This document shows, piece after piece, positions 7,149 through 36,983 of a stretch of DNA of 36,983 nucleotides. Where the stretch lies: positions 1 to 36,983 of the IMG/VR virus record IMGVR_UViG_3300047440_000111; one strand, 5' to 3'. Numbering within the stretch: position 1 is the stretch's first letter; the number at the start of each line of letters is the position of its first letter. This DNA comes from a virus. The translations under genes were made by a program, and so were the position numbers. The notes beneath the pieces were generated by a model. The model searched no databases, was not told the DNA's origin, and saw only the letters and a program-made list of their open reading frames with translations.

Positions 7149-7212
7149 GTACGGAGACTACCCCCACACCGCAAACTCTACCACGGGTTTCCAGGTGGAG
7201 TAGACTCTGTAC
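7149..7212 (-). ncRNA. Structured RNA element, likely 5' leader of the 135-residue gene
   Basis: In an otherwise A/T-only gap, this 64-base GC-richer block folds well. GTACGGAG (7149-7156) pairs with CTCTGTAC (7205-7212), allowing one G-T, and CTAC (7158-7161) pairs with GTAG (7200-7203). TCTACC (7177-7182) pairs with GGTGGA (7194-7199). The internal loop CCCC (7162-7165) could pair with the hairpin-loop GGG (7185-7187) as a pseudoknot. Its strand is uncertain; minus is listed because it would lie in the leader of the leftward gene. It does not fit a tRNA, hammerhead or any riboswitch I know. Confidence 0.5.
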
Positions 7213-20796: not shown

Positions 20797-20904
20797 ATGT
20801 CTAGTCAGTGTGCTTCCTGTGGGGTAAAGGTGGGCTGTGGATGTCAATTAACAAATGGCCTTTGTGCTACTTGTTTGGCTAAGCAACAACAATCAAAAAA
20901 ATGA
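20797..20904 (+). CDS. Six-Cys micro-protein, 35 residues
   Basis: The frame MSSQCASCGVKVGCGCQLTN continues GLCATCLAKQQQSKK. Six Cys in three C-x-x-C or C-x-C pairs (Cys5/8, 14/16, 23/26) indicate a compact zinc or disulfide knuckle. It begins 2 bases after the preceding stop and ends in an ATGA overlap with the next gene, whose own N-terminus also has a C-x-x-C. Both junctions support real translation. It may be a tiny structural or assembly factor for the Cys-rich fibre proteins. Confidence 0.65.
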   Translation: MSSQCASCGVKVGCGCQLTNGLCATCLAKQQQSKK

Positions 20905-21839
20905 TGCTGTCTCCTAAAATAACGAATTGTAAGGACTGTGCAGAGATACCTCCTTTGATTGCAGAAATCAATTGTAAGTTATTTGACACAAGTAAACGAC
21001 TATATAATAATATTGTATTCTCGTTAAACTTGCATATTTCCTATATGGCAATAGTAGATCTCTTGCATTACAAGAGAATTCTAGAGTATAAACTAGTTAA
21101 TCCTAAGTATGCTGGAGATTTCAGTGTAAATATGATAGCAAGTAAGGTTAAGTTGATTACTCTTGGCTGTAAAACTAAGTGTCCTTGTGCTTCAGGAACA
21201 GTATTAACAACAACTACAACTGTTCCTACAACTACAACAACATCAACACCTGCAATATCTACAAGCACTACTACTACAGATATTCCAACAACTACAACAA
21301 CTACATTAGCTCCTGTTACTACAACAACTACTACAACACTTGGTACTGGCTTTTTCTACAATGTAACTACATTTATTTGTGGAATTTGTTCAGAATTTGG
21401 AGCTGGAACTATATCTAATCCTGTGCCTTTGGTAGTAGGTAAATTCTACTATCATGTAGTATTAGATCTAGTAGTTAGTATTGATAGTTTTATAATGTCT
21501 AATAATACAACTCCACCAGAGGTTGTTTTCTTAAGTAGTCAACAGGATACTTGTGCAGGAGTGGTATGTCCTGTAACAACATCCACTACCACTACTGTTA
21601 CACCTTGTGTTGGTTATATGTATGCATATAATTCATATCCTTGTGCTACTTGTAATGCTACTGGAGGAGGACCAATAATTAACTCTGAACCTCTTACTCC
21701 TGGAAAATGGTATTATCACCCAGCAATAGGTCAAATAATAGTAATAAATAATTTTCTAGGTTGTCAACCTACTACTGATGCATCTATTTTAGATAGTACT
21801 AAAAAAGACACTTGTGCTGAAGTTGTATGTCCAGGTTAA
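20901..21839 (+). CDS. Modular display protein: helical head, Thr-rich linker, two Cys-bracketed domains, 312 residues
   Basis: Residues 1-97 form a mostly helical head with C-x-x-C at 10-13 and further Cys at 25, 90, 94 and 96. Residues 103-147 are a Thr-rich linker broken by Pro, Ala and Ile. Domain 1 (about 151-223) and domain 2 (about 239-310) are copies of one fold: aromatic strand, C-x-x-C, Gly-rich turn, a P-L-x-x-GK-[FW]-YYH strand, then DTCA-x-VVC at the end. A short Thr linker (226-234) separates them. The same domain closes the muzzle protein at 36589-36810. The design is an attachment head, a stiff extended stalk and terminal binding heads, which suggests display on the virion surface. 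Binding target unknown. Confidence 0.6.
   Translation: MMLSPKITNCKDCAEIPPLIAEINCKLFDTSKRLYNNIVFSLNLHISYMAIVDLLHYKRILEYKLVNPKYAGDFSVNMIASKVKLITLGCKTKCPCASGTVLTTTTTVPTTTTTSTPAISTSTTTTDIPTTTTTTLAPVTTTTTTTLGTGFFYNVTTFICGICSEFGAGTISNPVPLVVGKFYYHVVLDLVVSIDSFIMSNNTTPPEVVFLSSQQDTCAGVVCPVTTSTTTTVTPCVGYMYAYNSYPCATCNATGGGPIINSEPLTPGKWYYHPAIGQIIVINNFLGCQPTTDASILDSTKKDTCAEVVCPG
21207..21341 (+). repeat. ACN triplet tract encoding a Thr-rich linker
   Basis: About 135 bases dominated by ACA, ACT and ACC codons, interrupted by Pro and Ile codons. Similar tracts occur near 20090-20150, 28171-28264, 28790-28850, 34417-34440, 36076-36138 and 36559-36582. They may act as recombination sites between genes. Confidence 0.75.
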
Positions 21840-21882
21840 TTAGTAAAAGAGAATTATATTTAACAAAATAAAAATAAATAAG

Positions 21883-22974
21883 ATGGCATGTTCTAACTGT
21901 TTCAATGGTTGTGCAGATATAATCTCTGACCAGTGTGTAAAATATACAGGAATTGATATTCCTGGACTGGAAATAACTGCAGGAGATCCTCTTCTTGTTG
22001 TTGAGAACCAGATTATTAATAAGATTCTAACATTAATGACTGGGGAAGGTATTATTCCCATCATTGATACTGCAGACTTATGCCCTTTAGTTTCTAGTTT
22101 TCTTCCTGTAGCTGGAGATATTACACTTAATCATGTAATCTCTGCATTGTTTCAAACTGTTTGTGCTTTAGATACAAGATTAACAGCAGCAGAAGGAACT
22201 CTAAATACATTGAATGCTGATTATGTTATAGACTGTTTGGCTGGAGTGACACCTGATGCAGGAACACATGATATCCTTCAGGCTGCAATAGTCAAGTTAT
22301 GTGAAGTATCTGAAGATTTAGAAGATCTAGCTGCAGAAGTAGGTGCTAACTATGTTCTAATTGCTGATATTAATGATTATATAGCAGCTTATATTGAAGA
22401 TCAACCAGTAGCTACTCTTATGAATGCTAAGATGGTTCCTTATTCTGCTGTACCTTTCTTTGCTCCTCCTGAATATTTAGTTGGAAAATTTGATAGTACA
22501 GGAGCTGGATTAGGAGAATGGGAAAAGATTTACTTATGTAATGGACAAAACTTCACTCCAGATTTAAGAGGAAGAACATTAGTAGGTAATTCTACTATGG
22601 GTACCAATCCTTATGGAGCTAATGGAGCAGCTGATCCAGCTACATCAGGTAATCCTAATTATGCTCAAGGAGACTTGGTTGGTTCTAATTTGATTATTTT
22701 AACAGAGGCACAAATGCCTATTCATACACATACAGGAGATACTGATGCTGCAGGAACCCATACACATAATTTAAGTGAAATTAGAAAGTATACAAACGTT
22801 CAAGGTATTAATGGTTTCTATGATAGATCACAAACTTATGATAATGCAGGTTTAAAAACAGATCCTGCAGGAAATCATAGTCATGCTTTTATAACGAGAC
22901 CTGCTGGTTCAGGAGGAGGACACCCTAATATTCAACCTGTATACGCTACAAACTTTATTATTTATTTGCCATAA
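21883..22974 (+). CDS. Short tail fibre with collar domain, 363 residues
   Basis: The C-terminal half has the phage tail-collar signature: WEKIYLCNGQ (Cys219-Asn-Gly), FTPDLRGRTLVGN (227-236), and His-x-His motifs at HTHT (281-284), HTH (293-295) and HSH (332-334). The closing element is HPNIQPVYATNFIIYL (347-362). In T4 gp12-type short fibres such His-x-His sites bind metal along the trimer axis. The N-terminus (MACSNCFNGCADIISDQCVK) is a C-x-x-C dock also found on the giant fibre just downstream. It is followed by an ITAGDPL element and helical segments, so both fibres probably attach to the same platform. Trimeric receptor-contacting fibre is the likely role. Confidence 0.82.
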   Translation: MACSNCFNGCADIISDQCVKYTGIDIPGLEITAGDPLLVVENQIINKILTLMTGEGIIPIIDTADLCPLVSSFLPVAGDITLNHVISALFQTVCALDTRLTAAEGTLNTLNADYVIDCLAGVTPDAGTHDILQAAIVKLCEVSEDLEDLAAEVGANYVLIADINDYIAAYIEDQPVATLMNAKMVPYSAVPFFAPPEYLVGKFDSTGAGLGEWEKIYLCNGQNFTPDLRGRTLVGNSTMGTNPYGANGAADPATSGNPNYAQGDLVGSNLIILTEAQMPIHTHTGDTDAAGTHTHNLSEIRKYTNVQGINGFYDRSQTYDNAGLKTDPAGNHSHAFITRPAGSGGGHPNIQPVYATNFIIYLP

Positions 22975-22983
22975 ACCAATAAG

Positions 22984-25900
22984 ATGGGAAAACTATGTAC
23001 AAATTGCGTAGATCTAGTTAATGGCTGTGACCCTGTAGATACCAGTAGTGTTATCTATAAAGGGCCAAATTTGCCATGTTCAACAATCACTACAGGAGAT
23101 AGTTTAACAATAGCACTTCAAAAGATTGATGCTTTGTTATGCGTTGGTGGTGGAGAACAGAATAACTTTGTTAGAGATTTGTTTATAGATATAAATGACC
23201 TACCTGTAGATTACAGCCTTCAGGATATTTGTAACTATATACTGGCTTTACCAGAGGTGTTAAGAACTATCCTAGAGACAGACAGTAAATGGAATGTTTT
23301 AATATTAGAAGGGTCTCAAATAATAGAGATATATGAGATTCAAAATATAGGTAAAGGTATTATTACCACAATAGAACCAGATAATCTTTTACTCTTAAAC
23401 ATAAAACAGGATACACCTGGATGGCAAGATGTTCTTTCTGTTCAACAAGACATCACTACATATAATGGAATTAAGTTAACCACTGGGTCTATATACATGT
23501 TTACCACTAGTGAGTTTGGTTCCTATTTGGGATTATCTCAAAATACTGGTATCAATGCAGGTTTCCCAACCACATCTATTGGTATTAGTGATATTTTTGC
23601 CTTTACTTATAATTCTCTAGATTTCTATCAAGATAAAACTCTCTTTAAAGATTCTCTTTACTCTAAAGGAATAGAATATGCTGGTGATTATGAACCTAAC
23701 TTCACAGCAAGAAGTTTAATTACTCAACAATATCTTCTCTCTGTAATATCTGGTTCCATATCAGGAACTACCAATACAATACCTAAATTCATTACTCCTA
23801 ACTCTCTAGGAGATAGTTCTATTACTGATGATGGAAGTTTGGTTACTATTTCCAATCCACTTATAGTAGGAGGAACTATACTTCCATCTGCTGCAATAAC
23901 ATATAATGTTGGTAGTCCTTCTGTTCCATATGCTAATGTAGTTTCTGAAAATTTAAACGCTTCTAATATTATTGCTAGAGGATCTGCAATAACATTTTAT
24001 CATTCGAATATAAATCCTGTTGGACGTATTTTTACAGATACTGGTAATTTATTATTACAAAATGGAGGTACATTCATAAACAATGGAATAGACAGACTAC
24101 AAGTATCAGGTTCTGCTTTGGTGGATGGGTTGAGATATACTAGAGGGATTGATATTTCTGGTCAAGACTTAGATAGTGTTGTTACCGCTGGATTTTATAG
24201 TGGAAATCTTTTAATTAATGCTCCTAGCAATCAAGTAGGTTTTTTTTATATAACAGTAGAAAGATGGAGTGGAGATAGTAATTGGGCTCATCAAACTGCT
24301 ACAGCTTTTGGAACTGATGACAATATAGCTAATAAAATATATTCAAGAGTTAGAAACTTAGGAACTTGGACTCCATGGGTAGAACTATACACTACTGGAA
24401 GTTTAGTTGACCCTATCACTGGAACAGGAGTATCAGGTCAAGTTGCATTTTGGAATGGAACAAATTCTCAAACTGGAGACAATGGATTATTCTGGAATAA
24501 TACCACTAAAAATTTAGGTTTAGGAACTTCAAATCCACTTGCAAAATTCAATATAGAATCAAGTAGTGGTTATGAAATACTTTTTACTGGTTCAACTAAT
24601 ACAGACATCATTCATTATATTCCAGGAACGGAATTTCATATAAGTACTATTGGGACAGGATTGTTTTTAGGAGGCAGTGGAGATGCTAATCACTTAGCTG
24701 TTTATCCTACAGGAAATGTTGCAGTAAATTCAATAGATACTGGTGCTAGGTTTACTGTTGGTGGAACTGTTAATGCTACTTCTGGAATAGCTAGAGGTGC
24801 TTATATTAATAATAATTTAGTTGCTACTGCTAATAATGACTTTCTAACAGGTTTAGTAGTAAACCCTACTTTTAATAATGGTGCTTTCACTGGAGTTAAT
24901 AATTGGGCAATTAGTACAAATGGAAATATTCTTTTGACTGGTACTAATAGGACTATTGCTCATGCTTCAGGTAATCTAGCTTTTGGAGGTGGTTCAACTA
25001 TATTAACAGGAGGAGGAGCTATAATATTCACAGTAGGCTCTAATAATACAGCAGGAGTTTTCACATCTGGAAATTGGGCGTTTCAAACTGGAGGAGTACT
25101 TTCTGATGCTGGTTATAAAATAGACGTACAAGGTACTACAAGATTAGCACAAACAGTTACTCTAGGAACACAGCCAACTACGAGTATTGGAACCTATGAC
25201 ATTCTTACTAGAAATACAGGCACAGGGGCTATAGAGAAAGTAGTTAGTAGCACTTTTGAATTACTAGCCAATAAACAAAATTCAATGGTTGTGGATGGTA
25301 CTGGAGTCAAGTATCCAACTGTAGATGCTGTCAACTTTCAAACCAATTACATAGCTAGAGCTGTAGTAGCTACAGGATTTTTAGATACAACTGATCCATT
25401 TAGTATATCAAGATTTGATGATTTTACTTTACATATAAGTACTACTCAAGATGGTATTGCCTTTAGCCAAAGATTCAAGACTTTGCCTTATGCTCCTTCA
25501 GATGGCATCATAAATATAGTTGCCCAAAATGTTCCATTATCTGTTATTCCTTTAGCAGCTGATGGTACATATATCAGGTTTGTTGGAATCCAGATAGATG
25601 GTACAATAGTATGGTCACCAACACAATTTATCCAGTCTCCTTCTGTATGTCAGCTAGGAATTGTACTTGTTAAACGTATTGGTGGAGTAATAAGCTTCAT
25701 TGATGCTACTAGAACTGCTATCACTATTCCAGATGTTGCCGCTTATAGTAACTTAGATACAACGTCTACTGGAGTTAAAGCTACTACAAGTATAGCTGCT
25801 ATTCCTGGTACACTTAGTCACACTAATACTCAAGGTAAATTAGTTGGAATATCAGTGGCATGGGGCACAAGTAATACTGACAGTAAAGTCATACCATTAC

Positions 25901-27828
25901 ATAATCCTGCTCCTACTCCATTTACAAGACTACATCCAGGTAATGCATTACCTGTTGCGCCACCACCTCCTACATTTACTGTATTGGATCCAACTCAAGC
26001 TTATATTGGAGGAGTATTTGGCCCTATTGCTGGAAGTCCTAATCAAGCAACTGTACAGAGATTAGGATTTAATGTTAATGGTAATTTTGTTTGGCAGTAT
26101 GGTGAAAAAATATATTCAAACCTTATTGCAGCCCAAAATAATGTATTACAAGCTCCTTTTACAGACATACTTCCTGAAGGAACATTTGCTGAAATAGGTA
26201 GAATGGCTATAACAGTTGGTTGTACAGACTTAAATAGTTCTAGTGCACAATACTATCCTACAGGAGCATCGGGTGGTGGTGGAACTTCTCCTATCCTACC
26301 TACTGCATGGGGAGCTATTACAGGAAATATAGACGACCAACTTGATTTAAAAGCTAAGTTGGATGATAAAGTTTCTATATCACTAGCTAATACAATTTCA
26401 GGTGTAAAAACCTTTTTAAATGGAACACTTGGATTAAGAAATGTTGCTAATAGTTTTACATCATCTTTTACAAATTCTGTAACAGCAGCTAGAACTTGGA
26501 CACTTCCAGATAAGAATGGAATTGTTGCAATGACTTCAGATATACCAGTTCCTTTAAATGGAACAGTCAATAAATTAATAAAATTTGGGACTACATCTAC
26601 TGGAATTGATAGTAGGGTTGTAGATAATGGTTTATTTTTAGGTATTGATTCAATATCTCCTGTTGGATTGTATATGGATTTACAACTTGGAAGACAAGGA
26701 AATAAAATAATTGGAATTGAGCAATCTAATTCATTAAATAAAGGATGTGATTTAACTGTTCAGGCAGGAAGAACAATCAATACGACAGAATCTTCGCTAT
26801 TTGTTTCAATGAGTACTGGTACTGTATTAACCACTCTTGGAACCGCTGTTAATGGTGATAATTACGGAGGGTCAGGAAGAATATTCTATGGAGAGAATAA
26901 TAGCCCTGGCGATATATACAAACAGATAGGCGGCTCGGGCCCTTTTATTGCCATGGGACAGGCTTCAAGATCATGGAATGGATTTACAGGAGCAACAGGC
27001 GGTAATATATATGCAACAGTATGGAACGGAGATATTTACATGCAGACAGCTGGAATAGGTGCTTTCGTGGGATTAGGAGCAGGAAACAGGTCTTGGACTT
27101 CTATCATAAGAGCAAGCAATAATGATATTTATGCCTGCGTATTAGGTGGAGATATTTACAAACAAACCAATGGGATAGGTGCTTTTACGGCATTGGGTCA
27201 AACCGCAAGACAATGGAATGGTTTTGGAGTACACACAAACGGTGATGTTTATGCGTATGTAACAAACTCGGGGCATATATATAAACAGGCTGGCGGAGTT
27301 GGAGATTTTGTAATTATTCCAATAAGTTTTTTGTCATATTGGAGCGGAGTGACAATTGCAAGTAATGGAGATTTATATGCTTCAAGATCATCTGGAACAC
27401 CTAACGGATCTATGTATAAATCTATTGGCGGAGTAGGAGCATTTATAGCTACTGGTCAAGTTCTTAATTACAGTTCAATGACTGGCAATATTAATGGGAA
27501 TATATATACCGCTATTCCTAACGACAATGTTTATTATTTACAATTAAATGCTATTGGAGAGCCTAATTTAGACGGTGGTATTTTAAAATTAAAATCTGGC
27601 ACAGGAAAAGGGATTGGAAAATCTAGAACTCAAATTATTACCGGACAAAAAACAGTTTCAGGTACTGATATGCAAGTTGAGACTGTTAGAGCAGAATATG
27701 ATGAAAATGGTAATTACAAAAGATTTGGAACACCTGTTTATGCTGATAATGCAGAAGCTTTAGCAGGAGGTTTAACAGCAGGAATGGAGTACAGAACAGC
27801 AATAGGAGTAAAAATGGAAGTTTATTAA
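22984..27828 (+). CDS. Giant tail fibre, 1,614 residues
   Basis: The N-terminus (MGKLCTNCVDLVNGCDPVDT, then YKGPNLPCSTITTGDSL) matches the dock of the 363-residue collar fibre. A long beta-rich shaft follows, with Gly/Asn/Thr turns typical of trimeric fibres, including a W-x-P-W-x-E-L-Y segment near residue 475 of the pyocin-knob type. Residues about 1303-1520 hold five tandem 40-residue repeats (GDIYKQ-x-GG-x-GAF-x-ALGQ, then W-[NS]-G, then NG-[DN]-[IVL]-YA), a beta-propeller-like unit. The C-terminus ends with an EYDENGNYKRFGTPVYADNA motif and GMEYRTAIGVKMEVY, a tail shared by many fibre proteins of Bacteroidota phages. The repeats are encoded by DNA richer in G/C than the shaft. This is probably the main host-recognition fibre. 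Confidence 0.75.
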   Translation: MGKLCTNCVDLVNGCDPVDTSSVIYKGPNLPCSTITTGDSLTIALQKIDALLCVGGGEQNNFVRDLFIDINDLPVDYSLQDICNYILALPEVLRTILETDSKWNVLILEGSQIIEIYEIQNIGKGIITTIEPDNLLLLNIKQDTPGWQDVLSVQQDITTYNGIKLTTGSIYMFTTSEFGSYLGLSQNTGINAGFPTTSIGISDIFAFTYNSLDFYQDKTLFKDSLYSKGIEYAGDYEPNFTARSLITQQYLLSVISGSISGTTNTIPKFITPNSLGDSSITDDGSLVTISNPLIVGGTILPSAAITYNVGSPSVPYANVVSENLNASNIIARGSAITFYHSNINPVGRIFTDTGNLLLQNGGTFINNGIDRLQVSGSALVDGLRYTRGIDISGQDLDSVVTAGFYSGNLLINAPSNQVGFFYITVERWSGDSNWAHQTATAFGTDDNIANKIYSRVRNLGTWTPWVELYTTGSLVDPITGTGVSGQVAFWNGTNSQTGDNGLFWNNTTKNLGLGTSNPLAKFNIESSSGYEILFTGSTNTDIIHYIPGTEFHISTIGTGLFLGGSGDANHLAVYPTGNVAVNSIDTGARFTVGGTVNATSGIARGAYINNNLVATANNDFLTGLVVNPTFNNGAFTGVNNWAISTNGNILLTGTNRTIAHASGNLAFGGGSTILTGGGAIIFTVGSNNTAGVFTSGNWAFQTGGVLSDAGYKIDVQGTTRLAQTVTLGTQPTTSIGTYDILTRNTGTGAIEKVVSSTFELLANKQNSMVVDGTGVKYPTVDAVNFQTNYIARAVVATGFLDTTDPFSISRFDDFTLHISTTQDGIAFSQRFKTLPYAPSDGIINIVAQNVPLSVIPLAADGTYIRFVGIQIDGTIVWSPTQFIQSPSVCQLGIVLVKRIGGVISFIDATRTAITIPDVAAYSNLDTTSTGVKATTSIAAIPGTLSHTNTQGKLVGISVAWGTSNTDSKVIPLHNPAPTPFTRLHPGNALPVAPPPPTFTVLDPTQAYIGGVFGPIAGSPNQATVQRLGFNVNGNFVWQYGEKIYSNLIAAQNNVLQAPFTDILPEGTFAEIGRMAITVGCTDLNSSSAQYYPTGASGGGGTSPILPTAWGAITGNIDDQLDLKAKLDDKVSISLANTISGVKTFLNGTLGLRNVANSFTSSFTNSVTAARTWTLPDKNGIVAMTSDIPVPLNGTVNKLIKFGTTSTGIDSRVVDNGLFLGIDSISPVGLYMDLQLGRQGNKIIGIEQSNSLNKGCDLTVQAGRTINTTESSLFVSMSTGTVLTTLGTAVNGDNYGGSGRIFYGENNSPGDIYKQIGGSGPFIAMGQASRSWNGFTGATGGNIYATVWNGDIYMQTAGIGAFVGLGAGNRSWTSIIRASNNDIYACVLGGDIYKQTNGIGAFTALGQTARQWNGFGVHTNGDVYAYVTNSGHIYKQAGGVGDFVIIPISFLSYWSGVTIASNGDLYASRSSGTPNGSMYKSIGGVGAFIATGQVLNYSSMTGNINGNIYTAIPNDNVYYLQLNAIGEPNLDGGILKLKSGTGKGIGKSRTQIITGQKTVSGTDMQVETVRAEYDENGNYKRFGTPVYADNAEALAGGLTAGMEYRTAIGVKMEVY
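26899..27530 (+). repeat. Five tandem propeller-like repeats in the giant fibre
   Basis: Each unit of about 40 residues begins G-[DH]-IYKQ (or GSMYKS), has a G-x-GAF-x-x-[LT]-G core, a Trp or Tyr-Ser in the middle, and ends in an NG-[DN]-x-YA strand. The third-position bases are visibly richer in G and C than before 26880 or after 27560, for example GGCGGCTCGGGCCC near 26930. Confidence 0.65.
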
Positions 27829-27931
27829 AAATTAAAATCATAAGCCATGACAAAAATATCCAATGAATCAATATACAGCAATGAAGTTGTCACTAAGTAA
27901 TTTTAAGTATATCACCATCAACTTAATTTCA

Positions 27932-27939
27932 TAAATTTG
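27932..27939 (+). promoter_or_regulatory. Promoter-like -7 box upstream of the first GPF-head gene
   Basis: TAAATTTG fits the Bacteroidota -7 consensus TAnnTTTG. It sits only 4 bases before the ATG at 27944, so initiation would be almost leaderless, which weakens the call. The 115-base gap (27829-27943) otherwise holds only a 17-codon frame at 27847. Confidence 0.25.
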
Positions 27940-27943
27940 TACT

Positions 27944-28543
27944 ATGACAGTATATATAACATTTACTTCCTTTGGCACTGATGTTGGTCCATTCAATCTA
28001 TTTTCTAATGTAGATGGATATGCTAATGCTTTTGCTGCTGGAGTATCCAAAGCTCAATTACTAGCAGGATTTCCTTCCAATAGTGTACCTAATGGTACTA
28101 CTATTGTGAGAGCTAAGTCTTTTGGAGTTTGTAATAATTTTGTGGATTTAGTTTTAATCCCTGCATCTACTACAACTGCTCCTCCAACAACTGCGCCACC
28201 TACAACTATACCTCCAACTACAGCTCCTCCTACAACAGCTCCACCAACTACAGCTCCTCCTTTGCCTACCTTTAGAGCATGGCACTTTAGTAGTCCTGGA
28301 AGGTCAAGTTCAGGATTAGCTTGTAATAGTACTAGTTTTACCAATACATGGTATACAAATTACCAAACAGGAATTACACCAGCAATGGGATCCACACTAT
28401 ACTCATCTTCAGCATTAACCAATCCACCAATTAATGGTGCTAATCTATGGTTTAATTTAAAAGAAGCATTTGATGATGGTAACCCTGTTGCTTATCAGAT
28501 AGGAACAGGTGGTACTTTAAATAATTTCTTTAATTGCCCTTAA
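27944..28543 (+). CDS. GPF-head display protein 1, 199 residues
   Basis: Residues 1-72 form a compact beta head (MTVYITFTSFGTDVGPFNLF; TTIVRAKSFGVCNNFVDLVL). Residues 75-106 are a Thr/Pro linker of near-perfect APPTT repeats. Residues 110-199 form a C-terminal domain with aromatic strands and two Cys (AWHFSSPGRSSSGLACNSTS ... NNFFNCP). The head is shared with the next gene (TAGLDTGPFDLYSDLD, VVRVQSKEICTSFVDITL) and with the gene that starts at 36822. The C-terminal domain resembles that of the next protein, with an LY-S-S/TSG segment, a hydrophobic LWF/LWY strand, and Y-Q-I then Cys at the end. Head-linker-tip design suggests virion display. No signal peptide, so it is not exported by the host Sec route. 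Confidence 0.6.
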   Translation: MTVYITFTSFGTDVGPFNLFSNVDGYANAFAAGVSKAQLLAGFPSNSVPNGTTIVRAKSFGVCNNFVDLVLIPASTTTAPPTTAPPTTIPPTTAPPTTAPPTTAPPLPTFRAWHFSSPGRSSSGLACNSTSFTNTWYTNYQTGITPAMGSTLYSSSALTNPPINGANLWFNLKEAFDDGNPVAYQIGTGGTLNNFFNCP

Positions 28544-28553
28544 CACTAAAACA

Positions 28554-29099
28554 ATGACAGTACTCTTAACATTAACAACAGCAGGTTTAGATACAGGTCC
28601 TTTTGATCTGTATTCAGATTTGGATTCCTTTGCAGTTCCTTTTGAGGTAAATGTGAATAAGTTTGGTTTACAGAGTGGCTATCTCACTGCTTTGGTGCCT
28701 GATTATGCAAATGTAGTTAGAGTTCAATCTAAAGAGATTTGTACAAGTTTTGTAGATATAACATTAACTAATGCATCAATAACTACCAGTACAACAAGTT
28801 CTTCTAGTACTAGTAGTACATCTTCTACTTCTAGCACCAGTAGTACAACTGCATTACCAGTACATTTCTGGTTCTTATCAAATGGAATGGGTACATTTCC
28901 TTTAGGTTGTGGAGAAACTACTTTTCCTATTCAAGTATTTTCACATACATCCCCAATAAGTAGTACTTCTGTATTATATACTTCAGGTAGTTTTACTACT
29001 ATTTTTCAAGGAGGACTTTTATGGTACAAAGCTCAAGGTCTAAGTGCAGTTTATCAAATAAATAATTCAGGGACAGCAGATGCAGCAAATCCTTGTTAA
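28554..29099 (+). CDS. GPF-head display protein 2, 181 residues
   Basis: This is a paralogue of the preceding gene with the same 70-residue head (MTVLLTLTTAGLDTGPFDLY; VVRVQSKEICTSFVDITLTN). The linker (residues 75-100) is Ser/Thr-only (TSSSSTSSTSSTSSTSSTT) instead of Thr/Pro. The tip domain (102-181: VHFWFLSNGMGTFPLGCGET, then SSTSVLYTSGSFTTIFQGGL, LLWYKAQGLSAVYQINNSG) keeps the Cys near its start and the terminal Cys. The swap of linker type with conserved head and diverging tip is good evidence of modular evolution. It is the last gene before a strong terminator. Confidence 0.6.
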   Translation: MTVLLTLTTAGLDTGPFDLYSDLDSFAVPFEVNVNKFGLQSGYLTALVPDYANVVRVQSKEICTSFVDITLTNASITTSTTSSSSTSSTSSTSSTSSTTALPVHFWFLSNGMGTFPLGCGETTFPIQVFSHTSPISSTSVLYTSGSFTTIFQGGLLWYKAQGLSAVYQINNSGTADAANPC

Positions 29100-29143
29100 T
29101 TAGTAATAAGAGTTAATATGTTTATTGGTTTTCATATTAGCTA

Positions 29144-29188
29144 GGTTATTCTCCAGGGATAAAGTCCTGGAGGATAATCATTTTGATT
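29144..29188 (+). terminator. Terminator hairpin closing the fibre cluster
   Basis: A 14-bp stem (GGTTATTCTCCAGG 29144-29157 with CCTGGAGGATAATC 29166-29179, two G-T pairs) has an 8-base loop and is followed by ATTTTGATT. It lies 45 bases past the last fibre-type gene and before a promoter-like box. Confidence 0.75.
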
Positions 29189-29222
29189 AGAAATAATATT
29201 AGAGTATGTGCTAACTATTTTT

Positions 29223-29230
29223 TAACTTTA
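29223..29230 (+). promoter_or_regulatory. Promoter-like box upstream of the tail-barrel genes
   Basis: TAACTTTA differs from TAnnTTTG at the last base and lies 16 bases before the ATG at 29247, nearly the same spacing as the box at 7275. The strong terminator just upstream implies that a promoter is needed here. Confidence 0.35.
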
Positions 29231-29246
29231 CCATATTTTATATACT

Positions 29247-29972
29247 ATGTCAACACTAAGATCTTTAGTTAGCGATGTGAGAAGTACTCATAAGTTACTA
29301 TCAACAGACGCAAGTATTACAGATAGGGCTATAGCTTCAGAGATAAGAAATAATTCTCTTCTTTTAATAAAAAGAGAAACAAATCTTAGAAAGCTTTGGG
29401 CTACTGACACCATATTTACCACTATACCCTGTCTCGAGATGATTGAAGTTTCTATCTCAGAGTGTTGTAATTATGTTGATGATTGTACTATAGCAAGAAC
29501 TAAACTAAAACTCCCTAAGATAGCAGAAGGTAATTACCAATATGTTATTCAGGGAGTTTATTCTATAAATGCCATGAGTGGAAGAGGTAAAAAACTGAAA
29601 GAGATTTCAGTGAATAGATACCTCAATCTAGTCAAACTTCCAATAGTTAAGAATGAACATTATTTCTGGATAAGTAATGACTATCTTTATGTAACTAATC
29701 CTGATATTCAGGCTGTAAGATTGGTAGCTTTATTTGAAGAACATATCTCTAATGAACTAATGTATCCTGAATGTTGTTGTGGTGTTGAACCTACTACAGA
29801 AGATTACTGCAGAAACCCATTAGATAAAGAATATTCTATTCCTGGATACCTGAGAAAGCAAGTGTTGGAATTGACCTCCAGGACTCTTCTTCAAACTTAT
29901 TACAGTATAAAAACTGATGCTACAGACAATGGAATAGATGGTCAAGCTTCTAATGCACCTAATCAATCATAG
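29247..29972 (+). CDS. Ring/tail-adaptor protein, 241 residues
   Basis: A helical N-terminus (MSTLRSLVSDVRSTHKLLST; IASEIRNNSLLLIKRETNLR) leads to a Cys-containing beta part: CLEMIEVSISECCNYVDDCT, KLPKIAEGNYQYVIQGVYSI. A strand region follows (YFWISNDYLYVTNPDIQAVR), then CCCGVEPTTEDYC and a C-terminal helix (IPGYLRKQVLELTSRTLLQT). Strand pairs followed by a P-x-YLR-x-QV-x-E-L helix are typical of the second ring protein in the crAss-like tail barrel. The TAG stop lies one base before the ATG of the HU/IHF-like gene. Eight Cys is high for a phage structural protein. Confidence 0.6.
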   Translation: MSTLRSLVSDVRSTHKLLSTDASITDRAIASEIRNNSLLLIKRETNLRKLWATDTIFTTIPCLEMIEVSISECCNYVDDCTIARTKLKLPKIAEGNYQYVIQGVYSINAMSGRGKKLKEISVNRYLNLVKLPIVKNEHYFWISNDYLYVTNPDIQAVRLVALFEEHISNELMYPECCCGVEPTTEDYCRNPLDKEYSIPGYLRKQVLELTSRTLLQTYYSIKTDATDNGIDGQASNAPNQS

Positions 29973-29973
29973 T

Positions 29974-30450
29974 ATGTCAAGAGTTAGTGTCGAGTGGAGA
30001 TCAGCAAGTAAGGAGAATTATAAAGTATTCTGTAAAAAGTTTCCTCATATAAAACTTACTTACATTGAGTGGGAGAATATAATTTACTTGTATAATGAGT
30101 CATATAAAGAATGGCTCCTAGAGACAGGAGATAAAGAGAGACTTCCTCTAGGATTAGGAGAGTTTAGTATAATTAAAAAGAAAAGGAAAAGAATGACTGG
30201 GAAGAATGATGAGTACATTAATCTTCCTATCGATTGGAAAAAAACCAAGGAGAAAGGAAAAGTCATCTATAACTTTAACTATCATACAGAAGGATTCTTC
30301 TTTGGATGGCATTGGTTTAGACAATCAGCAAGGTTTAAGCATTCAGGATTATGGCGCTTTAAACCAAGCAGAGTTACCTCAAGATTGTTAGCCCATTACA
30401 TCAAGGTGGATACTAAGTACCAGCACATCTATAAGGAATGGCTTGTTTAA
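29974..30450 (+). CDS. HU/IHF-like core protein in the tail module, 158 residues
   Basis: The N-terminal helices (ASKENYKVFCKKFPHIKLTY; IEWENIIYLYNESYKEWLLE) lead to GDKERLPLGLGEFSIIKKKR (about 52-71). This follows the HU/IHF pattern G-D-x-V-x-L-x-GFG-x-F-x-V-x-x-R, with LGLGEF replacing GFGTF. LPIDWKKTKEKGK resembles the family's late I-P-A-x-K-x-x-K-F-x-x-G-K segment. The C-terminal extension is basic and aromatic (GFFFGWHWFRQSARFKHSGL). The frame is open from 29938, but the ATG at 29974 avoids overlap with the ring gene. Proteins of this type are conserved between the tail genes of crAss-like phages. Whether it binds DNA, or uses the fold as a structural part, is open. Confidence 0.6.
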   Translation: MSRVSVEWRSASKENYKVFCKKFPHIKLTYIEWENIIYLYNESYKEWLLETGDKERLPLGLGEFSIIKKKRKRMTGKNDEYINLPIDWKKTKEKGKVIYNFNYHTEGFFFGWHWFRQSARFKHSGLWRFKPSRVTSRLLAHYIKVDTKYQHIYKEWLV

Positions 30451-30467
30451 CATAAATATCAATTACC

Positions 30468-31421
30468 ATGTCATACTACTATAAATATAAATTCGTGTCT
30501 CCTGAGCCTGTTTTTGCCACAATCAAAGAGGAATTTAAGAGCTATTTTGACACAGGTGCAGTTGATGACCTACTCTTTCCTACTTATCTTGATAAGTGCT
30601 TAAAGAAACTAGGTAGAGCTACCTACACTATTACTCCTGCTATATTGGATATATGTGATTTTGAAGCAAGACTTCCTGATAATTTCTATGCTGTTAGAGA
30701 AGCTTGGCTATGTACAGAGATTCCTCTAAACCCTTATCCAAATCCTGGATCTTTTTATTCTCAAACTGCTACAGCTACATCTATTCAGATTGGCCCAACA
30801 ACAACAGATCAAAATAATTCTTGTACCAATGATGCATGCTCTAATGTAGATTGTAATGGGGAGTGCTTACCTACCTTGATTCAAGTAGTTTATAAACATA
30901 ATAATGAGATTGCTAGAAGTTTACATAGACAACACTTGCTTAAACCAGGAAATATAGCTGTAAAAAGTCACTGTGATTTGCAGTGTGCAAACTTTGGTTC
31001 CAGTTCTGCTGATAGTTTTGACATTAGAGATAATAAGTTCTTCACTAACTTTAGATTTGGAACTGTTTACTTAATAATGTATGCTACTGATTATGATGAG
31101 GTTGGTAATCAACTTATTCCAGATAACTACAGAATCAGAGAATTTGTTGAAGCTTTCATTAAGTACAAAGTTATTGAGATGATGACTAATCAAACTAATG
31201 ATGAAACCTTCAATCAACTTCAACAAAAGCTTATGTACTATAAGCAACTATGTGATGAAGCTTATATCATGGCTGATATTGAAATTAAGAAACAAGATGT
31301 ATATGCTAAGCAAAGAAGAATTGTCAAAGATTTAAACAGGCTTAATATGTACGAACTTCCTAGAGTAGTTAATAGAGCTGATGGTAGAAACTCTATTGGT
31401 CCATTCAGAAATAATCAATAA
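30468..31421 (+). CDS. Ring/tail-hub protein, 317 residues
   Basis: MSYYYKYKFVSPEPVFATIK leads into a helical segment with DDLLFPTYLDKCLKKLGRAT. Strands of the tail-tubular type follow (ILDICDFEARLPDNFYAVRE), then a flexible insertion with a Cys knot-like run (CTNDACSNVDCNGEC, residues 119-133). The second half has YLIMYATDYDEVGNQLIPDN and a closing long helix pair (EFVEAFIKYKVIEMMTNQTN; LMYYKQLCDEAYIMADIEIK). The LPDNFY-x-VREAW and P-D-N-Y-R-I-x-E-F-V-E motifs are typical of the tail-tubular/ring protein preceding the stabilisation protein in crAss-like phages, as for T7 gp11-like and P22 gp4-like parts. The following gene starts 2 bases later. Confidence 0.65.
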   Translation: MSYYYKYKFVSPEPVFATIKEEFKSYFDTGAVDDLLFPTYLDKCLKKLGRATYTITPAILDICDFEARLPDNFYAVREAWLCTEIPLNPYPNPGSFYSQTATATSIQIGPTTTDQNNSCTNDACSNVDCNGECLPTLIQVVYKHNNEIARSLHRQHLLKPGNIAVKSHCDLQCANFGSSSADSFDIRDNKFFTNFRFGTVYLIMYATDYDEVGNQLIPDNYRIREFVEAFIKYKVIEMMTNQTNDETFNQLQQKLMYYKQLCDEAYIMADIEIKKQDVYAKQRRIVKDLNRLNMYELPRVVNRADGRNSIGPFRNNQ

Positions 31422-31423
31422 TT

Positions 31424-34400
31424 ATGGCAGAAGATAAATCATCTAAGGGTGAAATTAATAATGAGTTTGGCCAGGCATTTAAAGGGCTCAATATGGATAG
31501 TATTCCTAATCAGATTGATAAGGGATCGTTATCTTATGCCTTAAATGCTGCTATTGAAAACTTTGACTCTAATAGTATAACATACCAAAATGAACCTGCT
31601 AATGAATATTGTTTAAACTTTCCAAAAGACTACATCCTAATAGGTAAATACCTTATTCCAGAACAAGCTAAACAGATCTTCTTCCTTGCTAATCCCTCTA
31701 CAGGAGATAGTGAGATTGGTTTTATGTACAACAATGATTGTAAATACCAAACACTAGTCAATGCAAAATGTTTAAACTTTGATCCAAAGTTTCCTATCCA
31801 TAAAGCAGTTCACAAAACAAGTAACTGTGGTACAGAGATTTATTGGGCACAACCAAATGCTGATAGAAGATATATCAATCTTGATCCAGATAAAATACCT
31901 TATTTAGTACATCCAGATAGTACACCTTGTGATGAACAATTCATTGAACCAAAGCTATTAGATTGTAATCAACTAAGAGTACAACCTAATTATGACATTC
32001 CCCAAGTAGATGTAAAGGATGTTCTTATTGGAGGTAACGTTATTGCTGGTACTTATCAGTTTGGTGTTCAGTATTCAGATGCTTTAGGTAATCCTCTTTC
32101 ATCTGTTCACTCTATTACCAATCCTACACCTATAGCAGATACAGGTCTTATTACTCCTAATTTTGATTATCCTGTAGGTAAGTCTATTGTTGTTAGTGTA
32201 TCTAACCTAGAGACTGGTGGTCAGTTTGATTACTTCAATCTAGTTGTAATCAAAACTATTAATGCAATTACCTCTGTTGAGTTAGTAGGTACTTATGGAG
32301 TAGATGGAACAACCAAGGATATTACATATGCTGGCCAGAATGTAACTGCAATAAAACTATCTATAAATGATGTCTTTGAGAAGTTTCCTTTCTATGGTCC
32401 TGCTGATGATGTTACAACAGCTCAAGATGTCTTAATATGGAAAGGACTTTCTGCTCCTGAAAGAGTAAGCTATCAAGGTATAGCTAATCAAATAAGAATA
32501 CTATGGGAAACAGTTAGAGTTCCTCCAGGAAAAAATTACTCTGATGAATTACTTGCTACAAACTATAGAGGTTATTTAAGAGATGAAGTATATCCTCTTG
32601 AGTTTGTACCATTATTAAGAAGTGGTCATCAAGTAGATGGGTTCCATATTCCTGGAAGAATGCTAAGTCAAACAGAAATTTCTTTACCTAATATTCTTCC
32701 TTCTGATGATGATTTTATCGAGGATCCTGATAATCCAGAGTTTGCCAGTGGAGCTCCCTATTGGAAGATATATAATACAGCTGTAGTACTAGGATCTTCT
32801 GCACCAAATCCTGATATGGAATATCAACCATATCAATATGGTTCTATGGCATATTGGGAATCTAATGAATTATACCCTTGTGATAAGGAAATGTGGGGAG
32901 AATTAGCTAATACACCAATCAGACACCACAAGTTCCCTGATGTTAATGTATCTCCTATTATAGAGTCTAGATCATATACTCCAGGATCTCAACCTATTAT
33001 GGGTAATGATGCTATATTTCCTATTGGTATAAGAATAGATGTAGATCAAATTAAAGCATTGATACACACATCCTCTCTTACTGAAGAGCAAAAAGCAGAT
33101 ATTGTTGGCTTTAAAATTGTTAGAGGTGATAGAACTGATAACAAATCTATTGTTGCTAAAGGTATGTTACGTAATGTTGGTAGATATACAAGAGATCAGC
33201 AAGATTTTTACTATCCAAATTATCCTTACAATGACTTACATGCTGATCCTTTTCTGAATAGTTCTAATAATGCCTTTGGTGAAATTGCTAAAACTTGGTT
33301 AATAATTTGTACTGAAGATGGAACAGTACAGATAGGAGATCCTAATTCTAATAAGAATACCACCATAACAATGACAGCTGGAACTACCCAAGAAATTTGT
33401 TCTACTTCTAGACCTTATAGGTTAAGTGGTAAAGCAACTATAGGTCCTGCAGAGTATGATGTGTTTCATTGTTATGATGATGGTTTTGCAAATGGTGGTG
33501 TTGGTTGGCAGGATCCTTTTACTGATGATAATACTGAATTTACTTTTAGAATAGAAACTTTATTCTCTGATTATTATGTGTCTCAGAATAGTACTTATAC
33601 TAGAGTTGTAGTTGGAGGAGGTGTGGAATTTGAATGTTATAGTGGTTATGCTAGTAATAGTGTTTTTGGTTGTAAACACAATCAAGTTGCTATGCCTAAC
33701 ACAACACAAGCTAAACTTGTTATAGATTTAGATGGAGGAGATATTAATCATCCTCATGTTGGAAGAAGAACTACTATTGATTGTAGTAGTAATGTACCTA
33801 TTGCTCCAATCACTGAACCTTCTTTAGCTTATAGACAAATATTCAATTCTCCAGAGACTTCTTTTGGACAACCTTTCTTAGGAGATGTTCTTAAGTTAGA
33901 GAGCGTTATGTATGGTGGAGGATTAGCTCATTTTGTTGAAGTAAAAGATAATGCTAAATACAGACTTTTAACTGCAGAAGCGCAAAGAGATGCTTTAATA
34001 AGTTCAGGAGAAGCAGGTGGAGGAGATGCTGCTGCAACTTTCACTGCTTATCAAGCCTATCTTGAGATATACATTAATGGTATTACTAGAAAGAATTATG
34101 CTTACTCATTCAATTCAATAGCTGATTATAACTATTCAGTATCTGTTCCTAATGGTCAACAGATTAAACAAAGAAGACTTGACTTAGCTAGATACCTTAT
34201 ACCTGCAGTACAAAATGTAGGGGAGGATGATATTGCTATTAATAACTATCAGAGAGAATCTTCTGTTTATTTGAGAACAGAGGGTAGTGATGATGGAGAT
34301 CCTACAGCACTTCCTTATCCTCATCAAAGTCCTAATATGATTCCTCTTAATATTCAGGATACTTCTAGATTTATTTTAGGTTGTAGTGGGGTTAATCCTT

Positions 34401-36811
34401 GTGAAGTAGCAGAAGGCACAACTACTACAACTACTACACTTGTTCCTGGATTTTGTCCAGGGTCTTGTGGAGCTCCTGAAGAGAAGCATGATATTAAAGT
34501 AGTATCTTACTATGCTTCTTTGAAGAATACTTTCAGGGGGCAGTGGGGACAAATCTATTCTTATCAAACTATTGATACTGGGTTTCAGATTGATTTAGAT
34601 ACAGAGACAGCTTCTACTAAGATAGTTTTTGGTGGAGATACATTTATTACGAGGTTTGCCTATAAAACTAAGTTGCCTTTCTTTATTGATAATAGAGTAG
34701 GAGCTCCTGATGATAGTGAGATATTTTATGATGAATTAGGAAATATAGGTTATCCTAAGTACTGGCACTCAGCTAGATCTGTATTAGAAGATTTCTTTGT
34801 TCCTGGTTTAGATCAGAATATGACTAATATTATTAGTTATAAAGCTCATAATTTTGATTGTCCTAACTGTCAGGAACCTCCATCCACTTCAGAGAATCCT
34901 AATCCTAATAGAACTTATTATGATGGTATATTCTATTTGTTTGCTTATGGTATTCCTAACTTCTATGTTGAGACAAGTTATAATGTTGATTTAAGACAAG
35001 CCTATAATAACAAAGAAGGTGAGTTCTGGCCACATGTTAGTAACGGTATACCTGATGATTGGGTACAAGAGAGTTTTGTTTCCATAGTTAATGATAATAC
35101 TTATTATTATAATGGAACATTTTCTAAACAGAATATAGAGAATTTCTTCTCTCATATACCAGCAAACTGGCAATTTGAAACTTGTGAGTATATATATCCA
35201 TTTAGAGCAATCTTCTCAGATCCACAAGTAGCTACAGCAGACACAACAGTTAATAACTGGTTAACATATAGAGCAGGAGCTTATTTTGATTTCCCTCAAA
35301 ACTATGGGGCTTTAACCTCATTGGATGGAATTGATAAAGGTCAAGTGTTAGCAAGGTTTGAGAATAAGTCATTATTGTACAATGCATTATATACAACACA
35401 AACTAATACTAATGGCCAAGTTTACTTGGGACAATCCTTGTTCACTAGACAACCTCCACCATTGGATTATGCAGAGACAGATTTAGGTTATATTGGTAGT
35501 CAACACAAATTCTTACTTAAGATTCCTCCTGGGCAAATATCTGTAGATGCTAAAAGAGGTCAAGTCTTCTTGTTATCTGGTAACAATGTAAAAGATCTTG
35601 CAGCTCCTGGATCAGGTATGAATAGATTCTTTACTGATCACTTAGCATTTGAAATACTAAGATATTTCCCTAATGCTGAAATAGATAATAACTTTAATGG
35701 TATTGGTCTACATGGTGTGTATGATAGTAAGTTCAACAGGGTGATAATAACCAAGCTTGACTATGTTCCCCTCAAGGACAATATTCATTATGATGATGTA
35801 AATCAAGAATACTTTATTAGAACAGTAACAGGAGAATCAGAAGATGGAGAAGATATTTACTTTGACACACAAGTGTTTTTATCTGATGAGGATAACTTCT
35901 GTAATAAGTCCTGGACATTGTCCTATAGTTTTGTTACAAGTAGTTGGTTATCATTCCATAGCTACTTACCAAACTGGTATATAGGAGAGAATAACTTCTT
36001 CTATTCTGGTAAGAAAGATTGTTGTTCACCATTTGATTTTAATCTTTTAGTGGGTGAATTGGTTCCAAATCCACCAACCACAACTACCACAACAACATTT
36101 CCAATACCAGTATCTACAACATCCACTACAACAGTAGGATATGATTGTGCCATGAACGGTGGTATTGCTATTGAAACTACTTGTGAGCTTGCTGGAACAG
36201 GAGTAATTACAATACCTCCAGTACCTCCACCATGTACTAGACCAAGTGGATTAATCTCTTTTAGTCTTCAATCAGGCTATGCTGTTATTGCTCCACCTTC
36301 TACAGTTGTTTCAACAGGAAGTGCTTTAGCTGCTTGTAATGCTAAGACTTTTGTCTTTACAAATCCATTAAATGTTACTGGATCTTCTATAGGAGTTCAA
36401 GGATCTACTTTATCTATTGGTGTAACTTTGTATTTAATTAATGGAACCAATGATTGTACTGTAGCTCCTAATGGATTCTATTTTACCACTGATGCTTTAG
36501 CAGGTATTTATGAAGTAGTAGGAGGAGTAATAGTTAATATAAGCCCTTGTGCTTTTGTAACAACTACAACTACAACAACTTGTGCTATGTATTTATACTC
36601 AGTAGAATTTTATGCTTGTGGAACATGTTCTCCTACAGGAGCAGGAAGTATAGGAAACTCTCAGTTATTAACTGTAGGTAAATTTTATTATGATAGTGTT
36701 ACTATACAGAGAGTGAAAATTGTTACTTTTAATGGATGTAGTGGAGGATCAGATAGATCTATATTAGATAGTACCAAACAAGATAGTTGTCCTGCAGTAA
36801 GCTGCCCTTAA
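31424..36811 (+). CDS. Tail stabilisation ('muzzle') protein fused to Thr-linked display domains, 1,795 residues
   Basis: Residues 1 to about 1540 match the large tail-end protein of crAss-like phages. The N-terminus has FGQAFKGLNMDSIPNQIDKG and SYALNAAIENF, the usual start that places it on the ring stack. The body includes ADIVGFKIVRGDRTDNKSIV, and beta-rich segments end with TSSWLSFHSYLPNWYIGENN. One Thr linker (near 998-1004) interrupts the body. After about 1550 come a longer Thr linker, a domain of about 140 residues (to NISPCAF), another Thr tract, and a terminal copy (1724-1795) of the domain doubled in the 312-residue protein. This places binding domains at the tail tip, an addition not expected for the core family. 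Assignment of the body is confident, function of the added domains inferred. Confidence 0.75.
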   Translation: MAEDKSSKGEINNEFGQAFKGLNMDSIPNQIDKGSLSYALNAAIENFDSNSITYQNEPANEYCLNFPKDYILIGKYLIPEQAKQIFFLANPSTGDSEIGFMYNNDCKYQTLVNAKCLNFDPKFPIHKAVHKTSNCGTEIYWAQPNADRRYINLDPDKIPYLVHPDSTPCDEQFIEPKLLDCNQLRVQPNYDIPQVDVKDVLIGGNVIAGTYQFGVQYSDALGNPLSSVHSITNPTPIADTGLITPNFDYPVGKSIVVSVSNLETGGQFDYFNLVVIKTINAITSVELVGTYGVDGTTKDITYAGQNVTAIKLSINDVFEKFPFYGPADDVTTAQDVLIWKGLSAPERVSYQGIANQIRILWETVRVPPGKNYSDELLATNYRGYLRDEVYPLEFVPLLRSGHQVDGFHIPGRMLSQTEISLPNILPSDDDFIEDPDNPEFASGAPYWKIYNTAVVLGSSAPNPDMEYQPYQYGSMAYWESNELYPCDKEMWGELANTPIRHHKFPDVNVSPIIESRSYTPGSQPIMGNDAIFPIGIRIDVDQIKALIHTSSLTEEQKADIVGFKIVRGDRTDNKSIVAKGMLRNVGRYTRDQQDFYYPNYPYNDLHADPFLNSSNNAFGEIAKTWLIICTEDGTVQIGDPNSNKNTTITMTAGTTQEICSTSRPYRLSGKATIGPAEYDVFHCYDDGFANGGVGWQDPFTDDNTEFTFRIETLFSDYYVSQNSTYTRVVVGGGVEFECYSGYASNSVFGCKHNQVAMPNTTQAKLVIDLDGGDINHPHVGRRTTIDCSSNVPIAPITEPSLAYRQIFNSPETSFGQPFLGDVLKLESVMYGGGLAHFVEVKDNAKYRLLTAEAQRDALISSGEAGGGDAAATFTAYQAYLEIYINGITRKNYAYSFNSIADYNYSVSVPNGQQIKQRRLDLARYLIPAVQNVGEDDIAINNYQRESSVYLRTEGSDDGDPTALPYPHQSPNMIPLNIQDTSRFILGCSGVNPCEVAEGTTTTTTTLVPGFCPGSCGAPEEKHDIKVVSYYASLKNTFRGQWGQIYSYQTIDTGFQIDLDTETASTKIVFGGDTFITRFAYKTKLPFFIDNRVGAPDDSEIFYDELGNIGYPKYWHSARSVLEDFFVPGLDQNMTNIISYKAHNFDCPNCQEPPSTSENPNPNRTYYDGIFYLFAYGIPNFYVETSYNVDLRQAYNNKEGEFWPHVSNGIPDDWVQESFVSIVNDNTYYYNGTFSKQNIENFFSHIPANWQFETCEYIYPFRAIFSDPQVATADTTVNNWLTYRAGAYFDFPQNYGALTSLDGIDKGQVLARFENKSLLYNALYTTQTNTNGQVYLGQSLFTRQPPPLDYAETDLGYIGSQHKFLLKIPPGQISVDAKRGQVFLLSGNNVKDLAAPGSGMNRFFTDHLAFEILRYFPNAEIDNNFNGIGLHGVYDSKFNRVIITKLDYVPLKDNIHYDDVNQEYFIRTVTGESEDGEDIYFDTQVFLSDEDNFCNKSWTLSYSFVTSSWLSFHSYLPNWYIGENNFFYSGKKDCCSPFDFNLLVGELVPNPPTTTTTTTFPIPVSTTSTTTVGYDCAMNGGIAIETTCELAGTGVITIPPVPPPCTRPSGLISFSLQSGYAVIAPPSTVVSTGSALAACNAKTFVFTNPLNVTGSSIGVQGSTLSIGVTLYLINGTNDCTVAPNGFYFTTDALAGIYEVVGGVIVNISPCAFVTTTTTTTCAMYLYSVEFYACGTCSPTGAGSIGNSQLLTVGKFYYDSVTIQRVKIVTFNGCSGGSDRSILDSTKQDSCPAVSCP
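36589..36810 (+). repeat. Copy of the Cys-bracketed display domain at the end of the muzzle gene
   Basis: The encoded YLYSVEFYACGTCSPTGAGS ... LLTVGKFYYDSV ... SILDSTKQDSCPAVSCP aligns along its length with both domains of the gene at 20901-21839, including the SILDSTK-[KQ]-D-[ST]-C element. It is therefore a dispersed, diverged repeat about 15 kb from its relatives. Confidence 0.7.
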
Positions 36812-36821
36812 TAAAAATATC

Positions 36822-36983
36822 ATGTCAAAAACAATAGTCATAAAGTTAACAGAAGGAGGTGAAGGGATAGGTCCCTTCAACCTCTATGAAATTAATGGAG
36901 ATTTAATAGAGGCAAATATACCATTCAGTGAGCTGAAGATTGGTAAGGCATTTGTTGTGGATGATGATGTTAATACTATTATT
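36822..36983 (+). CDS. GPF-head display protein 3, N-terminal 54 residues (runs off the right edge)
   Basis: The frame begins MSKTIVIKLTEGGEGIGPFN, then LYEINGDLIEANIPFSELKI, and is open to the end of the window. The GPFNLY element with preceding beta strand matches the heads of the proteins at 27944 (GPFNLF) and 28554 (GPFDLY). By analogy a Thr/Ser-rich linker and a terminal domain should follow beyond the window. It starts 10 bases after the muzzle stop. Confidence 0.6.
   Translation, partial: MSKTIVIKLTEGGEGIGPFNLYEINGDLIEANIPFSELKIGKAFVVDDDVNTII

Follow-up and report, generated by a model that had tools for sequence, protein, structure and literature searches.

Thr-rich stalks with exchangeable tips in the virion proteins of a crAss-like phage, and their proposed glycosylation by the phage family phrog_4417

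Extensin- and mucin-type proteins contain dense O-glycosylated Thr/Ser/Pro tracts that act as stalks between globular domains. The phage proteins considered here differ from these in being cytoplasmic. The virion of Bacteroides phage crAss001 (PMC10172136) has the same gene order, ring proteins, muzzle and auxiliary capsid protein as the DNA analyzed in this work, a stretch of 36,983 bases referred to below as the window. The crAss001 auxiliary capsid protein (AUX) is present in nine copies per asymmetric unit (PMC10172136). However, there is no strong Thr tract in the part of the crAss001 virion block that was read and no member of the unannotated family phrog_4417 in its genome, whereas the AUX and muzzle of the window are extended by additional Thr tails and tips.

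Gut crAss-like and other phages also carry modular Ig-like and BACON adhesins, interchangeable surface domains that are thought to be adhesive (PMC13370021). In the window, by contrast, several virion proteins carry Thr stalks with small Cys-containing tips, and none of the window's proteins has an Ig-like or BACON match in Pfam. In mycobacteriophages such as Maravista, phage-encoded glycosyltransferases have been suggested to glycosylate capsid or tail proteins (PMC11256854). The likeness to the present case is a phage-encoded enzyme proposed to act on virion proteins; the differences are that an unannotated family is tied here to C-terminal poly-Thr tails and that the glycan is putative. Both modular phage adhesins and virion glycosylation by phage-encoded enzymes are known kinds of system (PMC13370021, PMC11256854). 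No account of a dedicated family tied to C-terminal poly-Thr tails in unrelated phages, or of its elaboration into stalks with exchangeable tips, was found in a literature search that had most subscription journals outside its reach.

The virion block and its Thr-rich tracts

The window comes from a crAss-like phage and is a fragment that covers its virion block (Table 1). Its membership in the Crassvirales is indicated by two ring proteins (PF25702 and PF24228), a muzzle (phrog_37948) and a gene order equal to that of crAss001. The best match of the muzzle among cultured phages is 32% identical. Near position 7200 the sign of the GC skew flips and there is a switch from small minus-strand open reading frames (ORFs) to the plus-strand virion block, which is likely a divergent transcription boundary. 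Two ORFs, one after the major capsid protein (MCP; 16773-17204, with a CxxC/HxxxC pattern) and one between the ring proteins (29938-30450), resemble homing-endonuclease-type or inserted genes.

Table 1. Features of the virion block; positions are nucleotides of the window, and residues are those of the Thr/Ser/Pro tract within its protein.
Feature	Position	Strand	Tract residues	Remarks
TerL	9051			Named by place in block and sequence reading
Portal	11087			Named by place in block and sequence reading
MCP	15080			Named by place in block and sequence reading
AUX (crAss001 gp36-like), 393 aa	18974..20155	+	372-393	C-terminal Thr tail 20087-20152, no tip
Virion protein, tail-hub A position	20231..20794	+		No linker; phrog_31752, E 0.0014; gene order as crAss001 gp38
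ORF 20901	20901..21839	+		Hub-position anchor, residues 1-101
ORF 20901 Thr linker	21207-21347	+	103-149	
ORF 20901 C-tip 1	21348-21566	+		
ORF 20901 short linker	21570-21605	+	224-235	Between tips
ORF 20901 C-tip 2	21606-21836	+		
Tail fibre/collar-type protein	21883..22974	+		No linker in window; phrog_8763, E 7e-22
GPF-head protein 1 (ORF 27944)	27944..28543	+	75-105	Head 27944-28165, Thr/Pro linker 28166-28258, family-3 tip 28259-28540
GPF-head protein 2 (ORF 28554)	28554..29099	+	75-99	Head 28554-28775, Thr/Ser linker 28776-28850, family-3 tip 28851-29096
Tail ring protein 2	29247..29972	+		Landmark; PF25702, E 3e-19
Tail ring protein 1	30468..31421	+		Landmark; PF24228, 30.7 bits against a cut-off of 27
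Muzzle, 1,795 residues	31424..36811	+		phrog_37948, E 2.4e-106; C-terminal extension from about 36060
Muzzle internal Thr tract	34418-34447	+	999-1008	
Muzzle Thr linker	36065..36133	+	1548-1570	Ahead of mid domain
Muzzle mid domain	36134..36553	+		Kept in 21 muzzles; remote GPF-tip relative
Muzzle 7-Thr linker	36560-36580	+	1713-1719	Precedes C-tip
Muzzle C-tip	36581..36808	+		Homologous to both ORF 20901 tips

A preliminary description of this DNA, made from its letters alone, had proposed a set of stalks and exchangeable tips on six proteins with Thr/Ser/Pro linkers. The ORFs it listed are all present at the same positions and lengths, and the tracts are there, in five proteins; no sixth was found. 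Apart from the tail of ORF 18974, the linkers join a head or body to a tip, as had been claimed, with the exception of the internal muzzle tract, which lies inside the body and has no tip after it. The tracts are real and not an accident of composition. When residues were shuffled within each protein, the Thr/Ser/Pro density of ORFs 18974 and 20901 was reached in 0 of 2000 shuffles each, and the longest Thr run was reached in 10, 1 and 0 of 2000 shuffles for ORF 18974, ORF 20901 and the muzzle, respectively. Thr codon use in the linkers of the whole set (ACA 0.44, ACT 0.37, ACC 0.17) is near that of the window background (ACA 0.41, ACT 0.44, ACC 0.15), indicating that selection maintains the tracts as peptide and not as a DNA microsatellite. 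ORF 27944 has a weak Pfam match, to Extensin_1.

Anchors, tips and their exchange among relatives

ORF 18974 has no PDB match by sequence, and its comparison with gp36 by sequence alone was not significant. Its AF2 model, of moderate confidence (mean pLDDT 66), has 7qof_a as the sole significant PDB match in Foldseek (E 1.8e-9, probability 1.00, TM about 0.4). This is an icosahedral capsid chain of crAss001 with 333 aa, the same length as the auxiliary protein gp36, and the position of the gene is also that of gp36. By its predicted fold, ORF 18974 is thus a gp36-type capsid auxiliary protein. The Thr tail is kept in 30 of 30 relatives, always with no tip attached; bare Thr tails also occur on other anchors. 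If the nine copies per asymmetric unit of crAss001 are conserved, several hundred Thr tails would be spread over the head.

The remaining anchors are named more loosely. ORF 20901 has the position of the small tail-hub protein gp39 of crAss001; the positions of ORFs 20231 and 20901 fit gp38 and gp39, but hhalign comparisons were not significant. The same holds for the head-fibre-like gene of relatives against gp21 and gp29, so that homology to any of these crAss001 proteins was set aside and the names follow synteny or layout only. The head-fibre-like genes belong to a second cluster of short Thr-tailed genes and have a 'KAYVRYDGTGR' N-terminus; the label itself rests on their layout. ORFs 27944 and 28554 share a common head, GPF, that occurs in at least 147 viral contigs. 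Neither GPF nor head-fibre-like domains were found in cultured phages. An apparent MSNSALC start in the GPF proteins had raised stop-codon recoding or a frameshift, which was ruled out as the true starts are GTG.

The Cys-bracketed tips noted earlier were borne out and form two families of three copies each. The first has two copies in ORF 20901 and one in the muzzle, whose last 76 residues are 38 and 49% identical to the tandem domains of ORF 20901. The second comprises the tips of ORFs 27944 and 28554, with the muzzle mid domain as a remote third member (hhalign E 6.8e-5). No tip of the window matches a known fold. The C-tip model has high predicted confidence, no PDB match and a single significant match in the viral library, to an unnamed viral protein. 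Some tips of relatives are known binding folds (C-type-lectin-like, ice-binding), and those that can be named are mostly of adhesion type: Fib_succ_major (three times), Ice_binding, Lcl_C, PARCEL repeats and PKD. In contig G002, the ORF after the muzzle bears an Ice_binding tip (PF11999, E 6e-49; L008:9853-10494) on a Thr linker, and the family of this tip is also found on a head-fibre-like protein.

The tips differ between close relatives. Contig G001 is closely related to the window (TerL 91%, MCP 97% and muzzle body 74% identical), yet its muzzle carries an unrelated tip, and the C-tip is instead carried by a GPF protein and is 54% identical to the muzzle tip of the window. A relative of the GPF-head protein 2 tip sits on GPF-head protein 1 of G001, and the homologue of ORF 20901 has 88 residues and neither a linker nor a tip. 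The head-fibre-like protein of G001 (L094:4659-5258) has about 90 residues of Thr repeats followed by an Asp/His-rich C-terminus. The sister phages G006 and G007 share a head-fibre-like N-terminus, which ends in a bare Thr tail in the former and a lectin-like tip in the latter. About 90 relatives yielded 204 anchored linker proteins with 203 distinct tips, which single-linkage BLAST clustering groups into 63 families (an approximate number); 15 of these families occur on more than one anchor type. Among pairs of GPF heads at 60-70% identity the last tip is common to about 1%, compared with about 60% at 90% identity or above; by these sequence comparisons, anchor and tip evolve apart.

Most of the crAss-like loci are metagenomic contigs and low-complexity tracts are prone to misassembly, so the modular architectures could be assembly chimaeras. 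This is extremely improbable, as identical head-tip combinations recur in independent samples and the pairing of Thr tails with phrog_4417 described below is found in bacterial genomes and in phages that were cultured and sequenced one by one. The tracts could also be mainly recombination sites or expanded microsatellites in which Thr is incidental. In 342 of 388 pairs of anchors with different tips, similarity stops within the linker, and exchange at linkers is a plausible by-product. These break points do not prove recombination in the linkers, since the comparison was restricted to pairs whose tips differ and the alignment of linkers follows composition, and low-complexity alignment pushes break points into them. 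The near-background codon use, the lack of repeat-type homogeneity, and the bare tails and the link to phrog_4417, which would be left unexplained, make this very unlikely. A diversity-generating retroelement target was ruled out by a profile search, which found no reverse transcriptase (PF00078) in 17 contigs.

The exchange between the window and G001, the tip families shared across anchors, the step between G006 and G007 and the adhesion-type tips are the reasons why the idea of stalks with exchangeable tips holds, and a check for tips with no common fold and no linker association in relatives did not find this to be the case. Modular display is very probable. The earlier suggestion of multivalent binding would fit the folds of the relatives' tips; for its mucus-binding part, nothing specific was found.

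phrog_4417 and the modification of the tracts

In relatives, the head-fibre-like Thr-tailed genes adjoin an unannotated gene with a DxD motif, which belongs to phrog_4417. Each of the seven contigs of about 98-121 kb with Thr tracts carries phrog_4417 beside a poly-Thr-tailed gene, and it is also present in G009. It is absent from phi17:2, Lbo-JY46 and contigs G010 and G011, as it is from crAss001. Strong Thr tracts are likewise absent from the whole of G011, from the GPF loci of G010 and G011, and from the virion blocks read of phi17:2 and Lbo-JY46. The window and three Thr-linker fragments of 63-68 kb do not contain phrog_4417, but fragments are not decisive; since the closest relative of the window, G001, carries the gene, it is presumably part of the window's own genome as well. 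Among Bacteroidota viral loci with enough downstream sequence, a head-fibre-like gene lies within 1.5 kb of phrog_4417 in 72 of 78. Conversely, where enough upstream sequence was available, 49 of 50 distinct head-fibre loci have a Thr tail and phrog_4417, and the fiftieth has phrog_4417 and a shorter Thr tail; this count covers the 80 closest loci and leaves distant relatives unsampled. In crAss-like phages it is the head-fibre-like gene that is directly paired with phrog_4417, so an action on the AUX, GPF and muzzle tracts would be an extrapolation.

Unrelated phages of Enterococcus, Lactococcus, Lactobacillus, Staphylococcus, Arcanobacterium and Chryseobacterium show the same pairing, mostly with a major virion protein as the partner. 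The major tail protein of phiFL1A ends in NGTTTTTSTTTTTTSSTTTTTTTQASSK and orf13 of Lactococcus phage 1706 ends in TTTTTTTTTTHHD; in both cases the next gene is phrog_4417, which is gp51 in phiFL1A. Poly-Thr ends are also found in orf50 of Lactococcus phage bIL285, where phrog_4417 is orf45, in the major tail proteins of PMBT8 and TPWB06, and in the gene preceding phrog_4417 in Semele. Firmicutes prophages have Thr tails that match between the capsid and tail proteins of the same phage. Across 64 dereplicated loci, the ORF preceding phrog_4417 has a strong Thr tract in 47%, compared with 0-13% at other offsets save -6 (36%), the place of the capsid protein in Firmicutes. In Bacteroidota genomes, distant cellular homologues are mostly without the pairing. 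Two further observations concern the ends of these proteins. In Arcanobacterium phage TPWB06 (L512:4164-4926), an overlapping ORF in another frame continues the poly-Thr end with a much longer Thr-rich tail and is possibly a frameshifted extension. In Firmicutes siphophages (L377, L406, L411 and others), the last 4-8 residues of the capsid protein recur at the end of the major tail protein of the same phage, also where there is no Thr tail; in one example both have TPTEPEGA. This raises the question of a shared C-terminal signal.

The association was also followed in 71 distinct homologues of one major tail protein, a set chosen independently of phrog_4417. The tail and phrog_4417 are both present in 16, both absent in 55 and discordant in 0 (16/0/0/55; Fisher 3e-16, uncorrected for relatedness). 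On the tree of this protein, phrog_4417 changes at least four and probably nine times, each time with the tail. Taken alone, the phylogenetic sign test falls short of significance (p 0.125), since only four independent pairs lie on strong branches.

The tracts might be plain, unmodified flexible tethers for modular adhesins, with phrog_4417 directed at the host envelope or DNA and placed nearby by chance or common regulation. Every result on tip exchange is compatible with this, and the other glycosyltransferase genes of the same phages could have other uses. However, a tether carrying nothing, such as the conserved bare tail of AUX, requires some other function. Furthermore, tail and phrog_4417 co-occur perfectly in the major tail proteins, the pairing recurs in phages of three phyla, and relatives that lack phrog_4417 (G010 and G011) join the same GPF head to tips without a Thr linker. 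Plain tethers are therefore unlikely, and sugar modification of the tracts is judged probable from these sequence associations. O-glycosylation, a mere alternative in the preliminary description, is the part for which the association of tracts with phrog_4417 now provides the strongest independent support.

As to the class of the enzyme, searches of phrog_4417 against Pfam profiles and PDB sequences gave no convincing glycosyltransferase match; a match to 7uek (E 0.0024) covers a short repeated stretch only and was discarded. The HPAT profile of the plant enzymes (PF23452; peptidyl-Ser transferases) was not matched either, a difference from the extensin system, but the control genomes likewise gave no match to it. 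On this account, phrog_4417 could be a Thr-directed modifier that adds something other than sugar, or a tail-specific chaperone or assembly factor. Against this are a Y-D-s-D motif (Y-D-x-D) conserved in 56 representatives, a fusion to Glyco_transf_7C in a single homologue, and the presence of GT6 or GT2 genes nearby in several relatives, which make such a role improbable. The same three features indicate that phrog_4417 is probably a GT-A glycosyltransferase. The general periplasmic O-glycosylation of Bacteroidota uses the motif D(S/T)(A/I/L/M/T/V). Such sites are nearly absent from the linkers (2 among 6800 S/T), which speaks against this system as the source of the modification.

Proposed role of the stalks and its meaning

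The reading that best joins these results is one of O-glycosylated mucin-like stalks with exchangeable adhesive tips, for which phrog_4417 would be the enzyme; its probability is put at roughly 0.7. AUX, the hub-position protein, the two GPF-head proteins and the muzzle end in flexible Thr-rich stalks, presumably displayed on the virion surface. Most stalks bear small Cys-containing tips that are swapped between anchors in evolution, which may provide an evolvable multivalent adhesive surface. The phage-encoded phrog_4417 would add O-linked sugars to the Thr tracts in the cytoplasm during infection, and the sugared tracts may become stiff, protease-resistant, shielding brushes of mucin type. 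The tips would bind ligands on the cell surface.

More broadly, the evidence leans towards phrog_4417 and C-terminal poly-Thr tails being a portable module for glyco-tagging virions in unrelated tailed phages. In this crAss-like clade it may have been extended from simple tails, such as that of AUX, to mucin-like stalks with exchangeable adhesive tips over the whole particle.

The analysis results in a predicted function for a widespread unannotated phage family and for the poly-Thr tails of major capsid and tail proteins, which are easily taken for low complexity. It also yields an inventory of the modular stalk and tip parts of crAss-like phages. Many tailed phages, cultured Lactococcus and Enterococcus phages among them, are predicted to have glycosylated virion proteins, and such glycosylation would affect antibody recognition, stability and adhesion.
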